From a virus, in IMG/VR virus record IMGVR_UViG_3300031539_008075, positions 1 through 45,081 of that record: 45,081 nt of DNA. One strand, given 5' to 3'. Made by a program: the position numbers and the translations under genes. Shown here one piece after another: positions 12,695 to 37,435 of the stretch. Each line of letters opens with the position of its first letter. Position 1 is the first letter of the stretch. The notes below the pieces were generated by a model that was not told where the DNA came from, ran no database searches, and saw nothing but the letters and a program-made list of their open reading frames with translations.

Positions 12695-12920
12695 CTAGGT
12701 TCCACCTTGTGATCGGCGACACTTCAAACCGATCACACGTGCACCGGCACGCGTCGAGTCCGTCTGGTCCAAACTCTCGGAGGATGTAACATTCCCCCTC
12801 CCGGTCACAGAACCAGCCGGCGGGATGGGGGTAAGGGCCCTTGACGGCGTACGACCTGCAAAACTGGCACACGCGCGGTATGACGAGTCGTGCGTTCTTT
12901 GGCTTTGCTTTTCGTCTCAT
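12687..12920 (-). CDS. Cys-rich small protein (77 aa)
   Basis: Contains CQFCRSY near residue 18, a single Cys at FCDREGEC, and CRCTCDRF near residue 60, so one or two zinc sites are likely. The start overlaps the methyltransferase stop (ATGA, 12917-12920). Function unknown; a zinc-ribbon DNA- or RNA-binding protein is possible. Confidence 0.6.
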   Translation of the reverse strand: MRRKAKPKNARLVIPRVCQFCRSYAVKGPYPHPAGWFCDREGECYILREFGPDGLDACRCTCDRFEVSPITRWNLDE

Positions 12921-13828
12921 GGTGACCTCCAGTACAAGAGCGGCAGCTCTCGTCTATCACGTGCTCGTTGAGTGTTGCGCCTCTCTTTCTCCAGCGCCTC
13001 CTGGGCGTGTGGCGAAATCCAGATCGCCTCGGTCCTTTCGGCACTGGTGATCGCTCCCCCGCCGTTCGTCCTGGCCTTGAACTCTTTCCGCACCCATCCG
13101 TAGGCCTCGTACAGGTCGGCGTACAGGTCCGATGGATACCCGGAGATGATCACCATTCCCTGCAGCGACCTGGCCAGCTCGGCTAATTCCACGTGGTCCT
13201 CGTCGGACATCTCCACGGCGTAGATGTGCTTCCACTTCGATCGGGTGGAGTGGAGGTAGGGGGGATCCAGATAGAAGAGCGTGGTGGGTGCGTCGCATTG
13301 GCGGATGACGTCCAGCGCCGGCCGGCACTCGATCTGCACGCCCCGGAGCCGGTCCACGATCGTCCAGAGGTGGTCTGTGTCCCGGAAGTTCATCGACGAC
13401 GGTTTCCACAGCGTCCCGGCCTTGACCTGGTACCTCCATCCCTGCCGCCGCCTTGCGCGCCCGCCCCCGACGAACCCCTGCCAGCAGGAGACGTAGAACC
13501 TGCGGGCTTCCTCGACCGGATCGTCCGATGGCTCCTGTGCTAACTCATACTCGGCGCGGGCCCAGGGCGTGAGCGTGATCGCCCTGATCAACTCGTCCGG
13601 GTGCTCCCTGAGCACGCGGAACAGATTGACGACGGCACCGTTGAGGTCGTTGTACACCTCGAGCGGCCTTCGCGGCTTGTACAGGAGCACGCTCGCGGCG
13701 CCGCCATAGGGCTCGCAGTAGCACTCGTGGGCCGCGGGCAGGTGGGCCAGGATGAAACGCACGATCTTGGCCTTGCCGCCGTAGTATCTGACGAGCGGGT
13801 GTGCGGGGGCGGTGGGGGCGACTTGCAT
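12917..13828 (-). CDS. D12-class DNA adenine methyltransferase (Dam-like)
   Basis: A 303-aa enzyme with the SAM-binding motif near the N terminus (PLVRYYGGKAKIVRFI), the FxGxG-equivalent EPYGGAASVL, and the catalytic DPPY in LFYLDPPYLHST (about residue 185). This is the D12/Dam class making N6-methyladenine. The start at 13828 was chosen because its ATG shares a base with the TAA of the SH3-like gene (TAATG); a longer in-frame start exists at 13864. It probably protects phage DNA from restriction or marks it for replication control. Confidence 0.9.
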   Translation of the reverse strand: MQVAPTAPAHPLVRYYGGKAKIVRFILAHLPAAHECYCEPYGGAASVLLYKPRRPLEVYNDLNGAVVNLFRVLREHPDELIRAITLTPWARAEYELAQEPSDDPVEEARRFYVSCWQGFVGGGRARRRQGWRYQVKAGTLWKPSSMNFRDTDHLWTIVDRLRGVQIECRPALDVIRQCDAPTTLFYLDPPYLHSTRSKWKHIYAVEMSDEDHVELAELARSLQGMVIISGYPSDLYADLYEAYGWVRKEFKARTNGGGAITSAERTEAIWISPHAQEALEKERRNTQRARDRRELPLLYWRSP

Positions 13829-14190
13829 TACTCGGTCTCCGGTTTGAGCTCCTGGGGCAGCCACCAGGAGGGGTAGGTTGCTCCGTCCAGCTTTATGCGG
13901 TAGGACTCGGTCTTATCGGCGTTGACCTGAACGACAGCGCCGGCCTCGCCGTGGGATGTGGAGTGCGAGTTGGCAATTTTCACCCGGTCCCCGACCTGAA
14001 AGGCCGGCTGGATCAGCTCCACGTCTGTGGAGTGCATCCAGGCCGGCAGGTCGCCGTCGGCCTGGACCGAGATCCACGGCGACGCCCGGTCGTCCGCCTG
14101 TATGACGGTGCCGGTTCGACCTTGCACCGGGGGTGGTGCCGTGTCCAGGATCTGGACCCGGTCCAGGGGTTGGAGTCTACGGTTGGTCAT
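13828..14190 (-). CDS. Two-domain SH3-like protein
   Basis: A 120-aa protein with two similar halves, each opening with a turn typical of KOW/SH3-like barrels: PLDRVQILDTAPPPVQGRTGTV and VGDRVKIANSHSTSHGEAGAVV. Such domains bind nucleic acid or peptides. It overlaps the 327-aa HTH gene by 14 nt and shares the stop/start junction with the methyltransferase. The exact role is unknown. Confidence 0.6.
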   Translation of the reverse strand: MTNRRLQPLDRVQILDTAPPPVQGRTGTVIQADDRASPWISVQADGDLPAWMHSTDVELIQPAFQVGDRVKIANSHSTSHGEAGAVVQVNADKTESYRIKLDGATYPSWWLPQELKPETE

Positions 14191-22122: not shown

Positions 22123-22464
22123 GCCTTTTATCCCAAATTTATCGCCAGTTTTGAAACTCGTGACTTGGGATAGACGCCCCCCCGACAGGCCACAACCCAG
22201 ACCGGTGCCAGCGGGATCACCCACGCGCCAGGATCTCCTCCCCCCCCCAGCGCGACAAGCACACGGTCGCCTGCACGATCTACCCCCGCTGCGCGCTCTC
22301 CTCTCCTCGGCCCGTGGTGGCTCGCGGCGATACTTACGGCGTAAGCACGAACACCAAAAGCGCGGCACCGTGGGGATGGAGACAAGGGCCGCCGCGCGAG
22401 CCGCGAGCGCGGTTGGCGCCGCACGAGGGGCAGCCCCCACCCGCCCGAGAGGCGGGCAGGGGCT
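22123..22464. other. Transition zone next to the T-depleted block
   Basis: No gene is supported here. T density on the plus strand is normal up to about 22350 and falls to three by 22464 (22413, 22414, 22464). The zone holds C runs up to nine (22230-22238), the palindrome CTTACGGCGTAAG near 22333-22345, and a hairpin CCCGCC-CGAGA-GGCGGG (22440-22456) just past the last TAG on the minus strand, which could stop or stabilise a transcript of the block. Confidence 0.6.
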
Positions 22465-22756
22465 AACCAAACAACGACAGAGCGCGCACGCCAGACGCGG
22501 ACGCACCAGGGGAAGGAGGAGGAGCGAAAGCAAGCCGACGCCAGCAGCGGCGAGACGCGGACGAAAACGGCCCGGGCGGGCGCGACAGCGCGCGCGCAGC
22601 CAGCCGACGCGCAAGCCGGCGCGCGCGGACAGCGCCAGGCCGAGCGCACACGGAGCGACAGCGGCAAGCGACACACACGGCAAAGCCGCCAGGGCCGCCG
22701 GGCGCACACGGAGCGCCCGGCGGCAACGGAGCAGCAGAAGAGGAGGAGCGAGACAC
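22463..22756 (-). CDS. Candidate A-free gene (97 aa), doubtful
   Basis: GTG at 22756-22754 lies six bases after AGGAGG, the only possible Shine-Dalgarno site inside the block; two of its six remaining minus-strand A are in this TAGGAGG. The frame ends at TAG 22465-22463. The product opens VSRSSSSAAPLPPGAPCAPG and contains only F, L, S, C, W, P, R, V, A and G; it is strongly cationic with no acidic residue. The preserved ribosome site argues for translation, but open frames are automatic here. It resembles no known protein. Confidence 0.3.
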   Translation of the reverse strand: MSRSSSSAAPLPPGAPCAPGGPGGFAVCVACRCRSVCARPGAVRARRLARRLAARALSRPPGPFSSASRRCWRRLAFAPPPSPGASASGVRALSLFG

Positions 22757-24530
22757 GGCACACCTCCTAAGCGCCCGCCAGAAACCCGGCGGACCCAAGC
22801 GCGGACACAAACCCGCGCAACCCCCCCGACCAGGAGACGACGAACCCACACCCGGCCGGCCGACGCGACGACCGCACGAGGACCGGCACCGACACCGACC
22901 ACCCACCGCAGGCCGAACGGCGGACCGCGACACCCACCCCCAGGCGGACGGCCCACGCGCGAGCGAACGAAAACGCGCGCGAGGGGGACCGGAACGCGCA
23001 CACGAGGACCAGGCGAGAGAAGGACCGGGCGGACGGCCGCAGGAGCAAGCCGGACAGCGACCCGGACCGGAACGCGGAAAAGCACAGCGAGCGAAGCGCA
23101 GGAGCAACCACCAGAGCACCCCCCAGGGGGGAGGAGAACCCCCCCCGAACGCGGACCGGGCTAACCAGCGCGGGCGGACAGCGCGCGGCACACGCCAGCG
23201 AGAGAGAGGGCGAACCCCCCACCACCAGAGAACGAGGGACCCCCGCAGGAGCAACCCCCCCGCAGGCCGGGGAAACCGACCCGACCACCACAGCGCGCGC
23301 AACGAGGCGCGCAGGCCGAGCACAGCCCCGCAGGCGACAGCGCAACGGAGCAAGCGCCACAGCGCACACACGACGGCCCACACGCGAACACAGCCCCACC
23401 AGGCGAGGAAACGAGAGCAACCACAGCACACCCCCCAACCCCCCGCCGGCGGCACAACAGCCGCCGGCGAGGCGGGAAAGCGGGCAGGACCCCCCGGGCA
23501 ACCCCGGGCCCACAGCGCACACCCGCAACCAGGCACCAACACCGCCGCCAGCGGCAGGAGACCCGAACCAGGCGCCGCCCGACCGCGCCGGGAGCAACAG
23601 CCGGCAACGCGCAGCCCCACCCAGAACAGGCCCACAGACCGGGAGGACACCCCCCCCGCCGGCGGGAGACCCCCCCCACCGCGCGCCCGGACAGCGGGGA
23701 CCCAGCCCGGACCGAACGAACACGGCCCCGCCGGCGACAACGGCCGCCAGCGCCCACCCCCCCGCAGGCCACAACCGCAGCCCGGACCAAAGAAGGAAAG
23801 AGAAGGAAAAGAGCAAAAAGGACAGGGCGGCGGGAAAGACCCGCCGCCCCGACGAAGCCAACCCGCCGAAGCGGGAACCGGGAAACCCGGCACCAACAGC
23901 CGCCCACCCAAGCCCCACACCCGGGCACGAGGCGGCAAGCCGCCCGGGCGACAGGCACGGGGCGGCTAACCCAAGCCGCCCACGCACCAACAGGCACGCC
24001 CGCCGCGGCGACGCGGGAGGAAGCCGAACCCCCCGCAACCGGGGCAGCCGCCCCCCAGCCGAGCCGCCAGACGGCGGAACGGACGAGGAACGACGCCCCA
24101 GAAGAGCGCCAGCGACAGGAGCGAGCCCAACGAGAAGGCCACAGCCCCCCCCAGCGCCGGGCAGAAGCCCGGAGCAAGAAAGCGGGGAGGGGAAGCACCC
24201 CGGGGCAGAGCGCCCCCCCCCGCAACGACGGCCCCGCGCGCACAGGCCAAAGACGAACCGCGCAGCCCCACCCGCCCACCCGCCCGACACCAAGCCGCAG
24301 ACCCGCCCACCGCGGACCAGCGACCCACGCCCGGCGACGGCAGCCCCGACAAACAAAGAACGCCCCCACAACAGGAGCGAAACAGCCCACACGAACACCC
24401 ACCCAGACAACGGCCCGCCCCGAAACCCGCCCGAGGGCGCGCAGGGGAAAACGAAGCGAACGACCCCGCGCCGGCGAAGGCCCCGGAGCACCACCCCGCC
24501 CCGGAAGGGGAGCCCGGCCCAAAGACCGGG
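22694..24530. repeat. Series of perfect GC-only hairpins inside the block
   Basis: Verified stems: 22694-22724 (12 bp, loop ACACGGA), 23295-23312 (6 bp), 23444-23469 (10 bp, loop ACAACA), 23825-23849 (10 bp, loop AAAGA), 23862-23875 (5 bp, loop CGAA, which is a UUCG loop on the minus strand), 23878-23890 (5 bp), 23931-23944 (6 bp), 23961-23980 (6 bp with the TAG inside the loop), 24157-24172 (6 bp, loop AGAA), 24499-24510 (4 bp, loop GGAA), 24513-24530 (5 bp). Arms contain no A or T. Such density suggests a structured transcript or protein-bound single strand. Confidence 0.8.
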
Positions 24531-24602
24531 AGAACGAACCGAGAGGAAAAGAGCAGGAGGAGCACCCACCCACCCACCGACCCGCCCCCCACGAACAACC
24601 CA

Positions 24603-24631
24603 ATGATACCACAAAACGCGGAAAAACGCAA
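24603..24631 (-). promoter_or_regulatory. Promoter-like site inside the block
   Basis: TATCAT (24608-24603), which holds the two minus-strand A of this part of the block, lies 17 bp from TTGCGT (24631-24626). The -10 box matches 5 of 6 consensus bases; the -35 box matches only the first three. The coincidence of the spared A with a -10 box is the reason to list it. Confidence 0.4.
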
Positions 24632-24778
24632 GGGGAAAACGGCCCCAAAACACGAAACACACCGAACACACACCGAACAGGACGCACAGGCAGGAAGACG
24701 CACACGCGACAAGAAAAACCGACAGAGCGACCCGGCAGGCCGACCCGCCAGCGCCCGGAGCACCCGCCGACCGCCCGC

Positions 24779-25357
24779 TCCGAGAATGCTCTTTCCTGGC
24801 TGTTCACACCGATGGTATAGAGTGTAAGTTATTCTTACGTCGAGGTTGTTATGTGTGGCACCTTACGGTTAAGCAAGGAGGGTCTTGGGGGTCCAACAGA
24901 TGGAATCAGCCTTCAATTGTGCTCGTGCCGGTAATATGAATGGATTGTTGCGTTCGCGCGCGGGATCTAGGTGGATACGGGGGCAACTAGGACCTATTTA
25001 CGGAACCGAAATCTACGTGGGTTCGGACCCGCTTGTCCTATGGTCTCTTTGTGCTACGAACCGCAGCCTTGCGAGTGGGCTGAAGCCGTTGACGTACGAA
25101 GCCTTTCTTCCTCTCTTTGGCTACACCATGGGTTTCTGGGTGTAGCCTCTGTCGAAAGTCACTCTTCGACTGTTCGCCACCTTCGCCGTAGGGCCTACTT
25201 ACTTTATCAATAGCAGAGGCGGGACCAAAATGGCTGGCGAAAGCTCCCTACAAGAGCGCAGCATCACCTTCGCGCGCGCGATCACCGGTTCACCAAAAAA
25301 AGGGGCAGGACTACCACCGGAACCAAACAGCGCCTGGGAGGAATGACCGACGATCGG
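24779..25357. other. Gene-free spacer with strong inverted repeats
   Basis: Normal base composition returns sharply near 24787. No convincing gene is present. Inverted repeats include GTAAG-TTATT-CTTAC (24824-24838), TAGGAC/GTCCTA (24988-25040) enclosing CCGAA/TTCGG, GGCTACACC/GGTGTAGCC (25119-25147), and GTCGAA/TTCGAC (25151-25170). The nested, evenly spaced stems look like a folded RNA of about 400 nt; the strand cannot be decided. Weak promoter-like boxes lie near 24815 on both strands. An open frame at 24900-25145 (plus) spans these stems and is not supported as a gene. Confidence 0.6.
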
Positions 25358-32385: not shown

Positions 32386-33018
32386 TTAGATGATCGGTAG
32401 CTTGGTCTGGGCATCGAGGGCGCGAAGGAGAGGCAGTGCCCAGGCGAGGCTCTTGTCTGTTGCGATTCCGAATGTGGTGCCGTCTATGCTGTCGGCACCG
32501 ATGTGGAAAGCGAAGCGGAAGCGTTTCTGGCTGTTGACTCGGCCGAGATGTACCCACTTTGCACGACGTTTGGCTTGGCGGGCGAGGTCGACGGCTGTGG
32601 GTGACAGCTTCCATTTGGTGGTGCCGCCAATGAATAGGGCTTCGAATTTTGACCATGGTACGGTGAGGTGCTCGAGTCCGTCCTGGGCGACGAGGGCGAC
32701 GGGATAGCCGAGGTTGTGGAGGGCGGGTTCCCAATGGCGGAATCGTTTCAGGGTGGCGCGTGCGTTTCCGACGACGTCGGGTGCAGTCACGAACAGGCAG
32801 CGGTGGTTGCGGCTTTGGTGGTGGCAGAGCATGGTTATGAAACGACGGGGGTGGAAGTTGTCTGGGTTGAAGCAATCGTTGTCGGCTGCCCACCAGGCGT
32901 TGGGTGTGAAGGATGCCTGGTAATGGACTCGGGGCGTGATGAGTCGGCCCACAAATTGAGGGAAGTTGTGGGCGGCGGCTCGTATGCTGGGCGTGTTGCT
33001 TGAGCTGAGGATCATCAT
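32386..33018 (-). CDS. TIM-barrel transglycosylase-like (DpdA/TGT-like) protein
   Basis: A 210-aa protein with WAADNDCF (about 43), CLFVTAPDVVGNA (about 74), PVALVAQDG (about 106), LFIGGTTKWKL (about 128) and WVHLGRVNSQKR (about 154), then GADSIDGT. The DN-CF, QDG and IGG motifs match the logic of tRNA-guanine/deazapurine transglycosylases (DSGGF, VQGG-type). Phage DpdA enzymes insert 7-deazaguanines into DNA. I infer a similar role here; the family match is by memory and motif, not search. The start ATG overlaps the stop of the QueT gene, so both are co-translated. Confidence 0.5.
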   Translation of the reverse strand: MMILSSSNTPSIRAAAHNFPQFVGRLITPRVHYQASFTPNAWWAADNDCFNPDNFHPRRFITMLCHHQSRNHRCLFVTAPDVVGNARATLKRFRHWEPALHNLGYPVALVAQDGLEHLTVPWSKFEALFIGGTTKWKLSPTAVDLARQAKRRAKWVHLGRVNSQKRFRFAFHIGADSIDGTTFGIATDKSLAWALPLLRALDAQTKLPII

Positions 33019-33497
33019 TTTAGCTCGGCCTCGATTGCGTGATATGCTGGAATGAGAGTGAAGGTGCCTGCGGTGATGATCAGCGCGGTAGAGATGAAGA
33101 CAGAAAGGGCGGTTGGGATCCAGGGCAGCCCTGCCCCCAGCCCCAATGGGAACGTGGCTACTCCCGAGGCAATGATGACCGACTGGGCCAGGATCGCGAG
33201 CCAGGGAATGGATCGGATGCGGATCTTGCGCAGTGCGTAGGCGGCTAGGGCTCCGGTGAGATCGAAGATGGGCATAATTGCCCAGTCCCAGAAGCCGAAT
33301 GGGCTGGCCTGATTCGCGAAAAAGTCCCCGAGTGCGAACCCGAGCGCAAACTCGGGCCGGCAGACTGCGAGGGCCTTGAGTGCGTTGGCGGCTCTGAACT
33401 GGAGGGCGTGGAATGAGATAGGGGCCAGGGCGATGACGAGAATGTAGTAGAGTGCTCCGATTAGTGCGGCGTATACGGTCCGTTTGGTGTGAGTCAT
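33015..33497 (-). CDS. queT: QueT-family queuosine-precursor transporter
   Basis: A 160-aa integral membrane protein with the QueT signature region LAPISFHALQFRAANALKAL (residues 24-43) and downstream GFALGDFFAN and AIMPIFDLTGALAAYALR, five to six membrane spans. QueT is the membrane component that imports queuosine precursors via ECF transport. Finding it as a phage gene, fused by overlap to a transglycosylase-like gene, suggests uptake of a 7-deazaguanine base for DNA or tRNA modification. Start at 33497 follows AAAGGAGACCACC; the longer frame is rejected. Confidence 0.8.
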   Translation of the reverse strand: MTHTKRTVYAALIGALYYILVIALAPISFHALQFRAANALKALAVCRPEFALGFALGDFFANQASPFGFWDWAIMPIFDLTGALAAYALRKIRIRSIPWLAILAQSVIIASGVATFPLGLGAGLPWIPTALSVFISTALIITAGTFTLIPAYHAIEAELK

Positions 33498-33574
33498 GGT
33501 GGTCTCCTTTTCCGTGTCTAAGTGCGGTGTCGTACTTCGTCTGTTGTGTGTCATTTTGGAAGAAACAAACCTAC

Positions 33575-33823
33575 TTACTGTGCGGCTGTCTCCTGAATGA
33601 TCGCGTAGCACTCGTGCAGGGCGACGTGGGTTTGGGCGATGGCCGTGGCAGCCTGGAGCAAGAGGGCCAGGAGCTGCTCGCTGGTCAGCTTGTTGTCGGT
33701 CCACAGCGTGGTGATCTCTTCGATGCAATCTGCTGCCACAGCGTTGGCCTCGGTTGCGTCGTTGACGTATTGGTTAAACCTGGTGCCGCCCACCTTCAGG
33801 CGGCGGCGGGTTGATCGTGCCAT
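33575..33823 (-). CDS. Small helical protein (82 aa)
   Basis: Opens MARSTRRRLKVGGTRFNQYV, then a Leu/Ala-rich helix (TSEQLLALLLQAATAIAQTH) with one Cys either side. It overlaps the membrane-protein gene at 33774 by 50 nt. Function unknown; an oligomerising or membrane-associated factor is possible. Confidence 0.5.
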   Translation of the reverse strand: MARSTRRRLKVGGTRFNQYVNDATEANAVAADCIEEITTLWTDNKLTSEQLLALLLQAATAIAQTHVALHECYAIIQETAAQ

Positions 33824-37352: not shown

Positions 37353-37381
37353 AACGTTAGCTACACTAGCTGACATTCATT

Positions 37382-37435
37382 TAGAACGCCAGCTTCCCAA
37401 GCTGGATGTCTCGGGTTCGAATCCCGACACCCGCT
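37382..37435 (+). other. Probable attP: 3' half of tRNA-Gly(CCC)
   Basis: Positions 37382-37435 reproduce the second half of a tRNA: anticodon stem-loop CCAGC-TTCCCAA-GCTGG with anticodon CCC, variable region, T-arm TCGGG-TTCGAAT-CCCGA, and acceptor strand CACCCGC. The 5' half is absent. Phages that integrate into tRNA genes carry exactly this piece so that the tRNA is rebuilt after insertion. It lies 30 bp after the integrase. An intact attP inside the contig fits a circular, not integrated, genome. Confidence 0.85.

Follow-up and report, generated by a model that had tools for sequence, protein, structure and literature searches.

A phage block nearly devoid of adenine on its sense strand belongs to a gene family of mobile elements

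INTRODUCTION

In the variable regions of diversity-generating retroelements (DGRs), adenines of the coding strand are specifically changed, and C is the rarest replacement (PMC3521204). The T-poor cryptogenes of kinetoplastid mitochondria lack one base on one gene strand, and their messages receive U insertions. DprA-like proteins occur in defence and toxin-antitoxin modules, including ShosA and shosTA (PMC9122126), and a tail of the form Qxx[LIMFV][FLI] is a beta-clamp-binding type of motif (PMC4549789). In the literature that we searched, the coverage of which was incomplete, we came across no account of naturally occurring protein-coding genes written in a three-letter alphabet. To our knowledge, DprA modules of the shosTA type are not known as adenine-free. 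Here we analyse a phage block in which one strand is almost without adenine, together with its relatives.

RESULTS

Composition of the block in the window phage

The window, meaning the whole stretch of DNA that was analysed, is a 45,081-bp linear IMG/VR record (IMGVR_UViG_3300031539_008075) of a phage that looks temperate, with integrase, terminase, portal and capsid-protease genes. On the minus strand, the phage that bears the adenine-free block also encodes a QueT-type (queuosine precursor) transporter at 33015-33728 (Pfam E 1e-23) and a D12-class N6-adenine DNA methyltransferase at 12917-13864. A weak Rfam tRNA match on the plus strand (37371-37429), adjoining the integrase gene, is possibly an att-site remnant; ARAGORN found no tRNA there. 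The extent of the block was as follows.

22343..24778, minus strand: adenine-depleted block (T-depleted on the plus strand), 2436 nt with 11 T, from scored segmentation
22465-24778, minus strand: block core, 6 T in 2314 nt on the plus strand

The base counts of the core on the plus strand were 623 A, 953 C, 732 G and 6 T, with T-free runs of 804, 636, 393, 300 and 171 nt, whereas the longest T-free run elsewhere in the window was 49 nt; A-, C- or G-free runs of comparable length were absent from the window. The segmentation gave a log-likelihood ratio of 536 nats over the window background, which excludes chance. The right edge is sharp, with T back at 24779, 24787 and 24790, and the left edge fades gradually across 22343-22464. 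On recount, the number of T, the 804-nt run and both edges given in the first-pass annotation proved exact.

The genes flanking the block lie on the minus strand, on which the block is nearly without A. Counting one at 22464, just left of the core, seven minus-strand A's were considered. Four are the A of a TAG (T at 22464, 22768, 23162 and 23967 on the plus strand), one (22765) lies within a Shine-Dalgarno-like AGGAGG ahead of a GTG, and the remaining two (24604 and 24607) fall within TATCAT (24602-24607), a sequence that would fit a -10 element as well as the Ile-Ile codons of an ORF. Over the whole block, codon periodicity was slight.

Relatives on phages, plasmids and chromosomal contigs

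At the DNA level, neither the block nor its flanks had a near relative in the phage collection or the viral contigs, and searches with the genes flanking the block gave weak relatives only. A terminase search gave 22 viral contigs, and when these were scanned blindly for stretches lacking one base, five further blocks came to light. Three of them (L012, L016 and L017) were nearly A-free across 0.8-0.9 kb and two (L019 and L021) were A-poor, and all five held clear ORFs. L016 and L017 encode a DprA-like protein, and besides the stop their sense A's lie only in the conserved Asp-Gln and the C-terminal Gln codons; L012 has two ORFs joined by TAATG, and L019 and L021 carry the DprA-like gene together with a second gene, here called gene 1.

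When the DprA-like protein was used as a tblastn query, six complete plasmids of cultured Gammaproteobacteria were retrieved, from Nitrosococcus oceani, N. watsonii, N. halophilus, Methylobacter, Methylocaldum and Methylomagnum, and the cassette sense strand was A-poor in all six. With profile scans, 13 loci were located in genome contigs (Gammaproteobacteria, Sulfuricella, Ignavibacteriae, Anaerolineae, Caenarcaniphilales and Bacteroidota) and 22 in viral contigs. The gene pair, or the DprA-like gene alone, occurs at about 40 loci in phages, plasmids and MAGs of several phyla, and one module was found on both plasmids and phages, adjoining accessory genes. The family core is a DprA/SLOG-like protein of ~190 aa, often preceded by gene 1 of ~100-125 aa, and the block in the window is a member of this mobile-element gene family with an adenine-purged sense strand, of which the window phage keeps gene 1.

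An assembly or sequencing artefact, a chimera or a low-complexity insert could be suspected as long as a single contig is considered, yet the same feature is present in independent metagenomes, finished isolate plasmids and MAGs, and we give this explanation practically no credence. The chimeric contig feared in the first-pass annotation is in particular ruled out as the cause, because homologous A-depleted genes occur in independent phages, complete plasmids and MAGs.

Several loci carried further features. A polypyrimidine leader, GGCGTTTTCTCTCTTTTTTCCGGTTTTTCTCTCTTTTGGGG, is conserved before gene 1 (L041:5012-5040 and ~5290; also L040, L039, L044 and L046), and in the plasmids an inverted copy lies 170-250 bp upstream. 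At L063:865-1866, the DprA-like ORF continues without a stop into one that resembles an IS200-type TnpA transposase, with A back at the junction.

Parts of the window block

Within and beside the block, the following parts were distinguished.

22429..22467, minus strand: strong GC hairpin, terminator-like, -35.5 kcal/mol in a 45-nt window, from folding
22463..22756, minus strand: ORF D, hypothetical, GTG start after AGGAGG, end ...RALSLFG-TAG
22767..23111, minus strand: ORF C, gene 1 homologue by sequence comparison, probable GTG start at 23111 after GGGGGG, TAG stop at 22767-22769
23161..24763, minus strand: A-free stretch on the 5ʹ side of gene 1; two more TAGs within it (23161-23163 and 23966-23968)
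24814..24838, minus strand: candidate promoter/operator, TATACC at 24814-24819 and palindrome GTAAG-N5-CTTAC at 24824-24838

The sense codons of ORF C contain no A at all. Its product shares 54-63% aa identity with gene 1 of L070 and L065 and is also homologous to an A-containing gene 1 (G004, on the contig of L019); the alignment scores reached z 16-23 against 500 composition-preserving shuffles, and the codon-model score in this frame was positive. These comparisons bear on the reading of the T-free plus strand as a pan-edited cryptogene, that is, a message receiving U insertions as in kinetoplastid mitochondria. In composition, the plus strand does match what the coding strand of the remaining genome gives once its T's are deleted, but the minus strand bears an intact ORF homologous to gene 1 and the homologues are uninterrupted ORFs, and we find such a cryptogene scarcely credible. 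T deletion or editing of an ordinary gene was rejected in the same way, the fit in composition being a coincidence.

A DprA-like gene was not recognised in the block by tblastn in all frames, and the SLOG matches obtained there were rejected as composition-driven noise. The tail of ORF D resembles the beta-clamp tail with Q replaced by A; its homology was unsupported (z 2.1 against gene 2 of G001) and its codon score was negative. In the stretch at 23161..24763 convincing codon periodicity was not found, and it is probably leader/non-coding sequence or degenerate genes. The terminator-like hairpin comes immediately behind the last TAG, at the end of the dense A-free part, and just beyond the sharp edge of the block lies a possible promoter/operator, proposed from its resemblance to consensus.

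Adenine depletion follows the sense of the genes

In nearly all of the 41 scored loci, A made up 0.2-14% of the sense strand of the DprA-like gene, compared with 17-38% in the flanks, and sense-strand T was undiminished. Several loci had 0 A at 139-187 four-fold sites; the Methylomagnum gene, for example, contained 0.7% A, with A at none of 164 four-fold sites. For the 31 loci with enough flanking sequence, the four-fold frequencies from flanks to cassette changed from.205 to.038 for A, from.258 to.343 for G (+.085) and from.198 to.296 for T (+.098), and C remained nearly constant (.338 to.323). Deamination of adenine (A to I, which reads as G) by an enzyme acting on the displaced strand or the mRNA would fit both the strand specificity and the rise of G at these sites. 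However, T rose as much as G in 27 of the 31 loci, and no TadA/MafB19-type deaminase was found on the elements tested, which leaves host deaminases as candidates; we consider this explanation very improbable.

The depletion extended to every four-fold codon family, least so in the rare Thr codons. Among the six-fold families, A-containing codons fell from 34% to 4% (Arg), 53% to 12% (Ser) and 18% to 5% (Leu). Lys, Glu, Asp, Asn, Thr, Ile, Tyr and His are almost gone from the cassette proteins, which consist of little but the ten amino acids that have codons without A, plus a few unavoidable residues. The A's that are kept are largely those of stops, start codons (ATG/TAATG), the conserved Asp and the clamp-motif Gln. 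Avoidance of stop codons in all six frames was rejected as a cause, since CAG, GAC, GGA and others are purged too.

The direction of depletion was that of the gene: the block of L019 runs opposite to its terminase gene and that of L016 parallel to it, indicating that the orientation tracks gene sense and not terminase or packaging direction. Neighbouring genes on the same elements were not A-depleted. As a control, the family profile was run against 101 Methylococcales genomes, in which the cassette was present in four (five places) and an ordinary chromosomal dprA in about 70; sense A averaged 2.9% in the cassette (four-fold 2.2%) and 17.6% in chromosomal dprA (9.5%). A-free runs of at least 145 nt in six whole host assemblies occurred almost solely at the cassette. 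The first-pass annotation had held that one base could be kept out of one strand of the block only by strong selection or by a targeted mutational process, and the adenine-depleted homologues, with the strand following gene sense, support that view.

One A-free run outside the cassette lay in a TolA-like Lys/Ala repeat (L083). A T-free stretch of ~230 nt without cassette match was seen at L081:1501-1730, in a contig of 6 kb from a Sulfuricella MAG.

Extent and loss of the depletion

In the extreme members (the window, L041, L059, L069, L070 and L077), the A-free stretch takes in the non-coding leader, and in several of them it extends to the 3ʹ terminator zone. The A-free leaders rule out a cause at the codon level alone, which would also leave the non-periodic part of ~1.6 kb in the window unexplained. 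In milder members, the depletion starts near the start codon and ends ~30 nt before the stop codon of the DprA-like (SLOG) gene, with A back at once in the 3ʹ UTR, a pattern that selection on the whole transcript does not predict. At the Nitrosococcus loci, the 5ʹ fade is gradual and the 3ʹ ends are sharp.

Two loci depart from the constraint. L049:3995-4603 encodes a DprA-like relative that lacks both the depletion at four-fold sites and the clamp-type tail, and its protein is still poor in Lys/Asn/Glu/Ile; it is possibly a relaxed former member. At L045:3610-4564, gene 1 is A-poor (5%), the adjacent DprA-like gene has 21% A, and the depletion ends at the gene boundary. These loci indicate that the adenine constraint can disappear or shrink in range. 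Neither a model of the whole transcript alone nor one of codons alone accounts for this fully.

Predicted structures of the proteins

The core protein is predicted to have a DprA-like Rossmann fold. Its model had a mean pLDDT of 95.7, and the best matches among solved structures were DprA (VIA Z 14.5 to 3maj and 4ljr), with 160-164 residues aligned at an rmsd of 3.2-3.6; Foldseek matched HpDprA at 1e-4, and the DprA-type antitoxin ShosA was among the best structural matches (Z 13.8). The family profile also retrieved chromosomal dprA at E 1e-5 to 1e-11. The protein nevertheless fell below the curated cut-offs (PF02481, 15.7 bits vs 29.6; TIGR00732, 10.9 vs 191), indicating a divergent relative and not a DprA orthologue.

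A C-terminal Qxx[LIMFV][FLI] was present in 22 of 33 family members (gene 2 of G001 included and ORF D of the window entered as a miss), compared with 43 of 1469 control ORFs (2.9%), and the tail retains its A-containing Gln codon. We regard it as a putative motif of the beta-clamp type. The model of gene 1 was of low confidence (pLDDT 71), and its fold search gave weak LAGLIDADG-like matches only (TM 0.27), too weak for a LAGLIDADG fold to be assigned.

The plasmids of N. oceani and N. watsonii are nearly identical in the cassette and around it, save ~200 bp of the DprA-like gene (L042:5659-6276 vs L037:765-1382), and L019 and L021 diverge strongly in the segment that begins at the GSR motif and runs almost to the tail. 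Such patterns suggest that close relatives swap DprA-like alleles by recombination, as would be expected for a gene in conflict.

Divergence between close relatives

The proteins of L016 and L017 are 94% identical, and the differences that their genes show at 64 of 175 four-fold sites involve C, G and T alone. The four-fold divergence of this gene (.37) is somewhat above that of the flanking genes (.09-.28), an excess for which its more even base usage accounts in part. The cassette proteins are under purifying selection. When N. oceani and N. halophilus were compared, the divergence of gene 1 and of the DprA-like gene did not exceed that of the neighbouring genes; few A-G differences were seen, and there was no excess of G-C/G-T transversions in their place. 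A mutator turning A into any base should have converted the A-G differences, and we therefore read this pattern as A variants failing to fix.

These results weigh on the idea of targeted adenine mutagenesis of the sense strand or of a transcript cDNA, DGR-like and self-templated, by which A would be ratcheted out unless selection holds it. Such a process would suit the long A-free non-coding parts of the window and other extreme loci, the gradual 5ʹ and sharp 3ʹ ends in Nitrosococcus, and the substitution spectrum, in which G and T replace A and C is rarest, as in DGR variable regions (PMC3521204), a resemblance that also counts against selection. On the other hand, no RT (RVT_1) was found on 21 virus contigs, which may be fragments, on the six complete plasmids or in three cassette-bearing host assemblies. 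No long direct repeat surrounds the window block, so there is no pair of template and variable repeats, and the divergence of gene 1 and the SLOG gene resembles that of their flanks, the lost A-G differences not being replaced by G-C/G-T. Taken together, we consider targeted mutagenesis a decidedly unlikely explanation.

DISCUSSION

We tentatively propose that the family is purged of adenine by selection acting at the nucleotide level on the transcript. The homologues are stripped of A at silent sites and show no hypermutation signature, and no RT or deaminase was found on the elements tested, so that the data lean to selection. Every A in the transcript, or in the displaced sense strand, would then be costly and would be removed by purifying selection, and the stops, start codons, conserved Asp and clamp Gln would stay because they cannot be written without A. 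The cassette product, or a condition that it creates, may be directed at adenine-containing RNA or ssDNA or at the ATP supply, in which case only an A-free message would keep being expressed; such self-avoidance of an adenine-directed activity is our leading guess for the cause of the exclusion. A self-referential module, in which the DprA-like clamp-binding protein (plus gene 1) would attack or inactivate nucleic acid that contains adenine, or expression that depends on ATP, and would itself be spared through a transcript with adenine at only those few positions where the code requires it, is conceivable but doubtful. Selection would have to be strong to purge single silent A's, and the departures at L049 and L045 also count against it.

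The pressure might instead come from outside, if the cassette had to be transcribed or translated while defences of the host or of a rival deplete ATP, target A-containing RNA or eliminate the tRNAs for A-containing codons. The sense-strand specificity, which includes the 5ʹ leader in extreme loci, the sharing of one module by plasmids and phages beside accessory genes, and the allele swapping of the DprA-like domain, which suggests conflict, would all agree with such external selection. However, a single gene family is affected across unrelated hosts and the neighbouring genes of the same elements are not, and we hold an external cause to be unlikely.

If selection is indeed the cause, the family exposes, in the conflict between phages and plasmids, a new activity or environment that is directed at adenine; should mutation be the cause, it points to a targeted mutator not previously known. 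Both readings are open to test in the cultured hosts (Nitrosococcus, Methylomagnum and Methylocaldum). The adenine-purged genes also mark, base by base, the positions that are unable to dispense with adenine.

Compared with known systems, the family shares with DGRs an adenine-specific change of the coding strand with C as the rarest replacement (PMC3521204), but it has no RT and no template repeat, extends over 0.8-2.4 kb and not ~120 bp, and shows no clear excess divergence. Like the T-poor cryptogenes of kinetoplastids, it lacks one base on one strand of a gene; unlike them, its gene is translatable as it is, with no editing needed. The likeness to DprA/SLOG proteins is one of predicted fold, the family protein being the Rossmann domain alone (~190 aa vs ~370 aa), and it differs from DprA in being borne by mobile elements, in its clamp-type tail and in its adenine-purged gene. 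With shosTA, syrTA, rqlHI and the DprA-PRTase of P2-like phages it has in common a small mobile-element operon with a DprA-like protein, whereas the PRTase partner of shosTA-type modules was not recognised here, gene 1 being modelled at a pLDDT of 71. Finally, the type of tail motif is that of beta-clamp-binding proteins such as transposases and Pol IV (C-terminal QLxLF), and the gene context in which it appears here is new.
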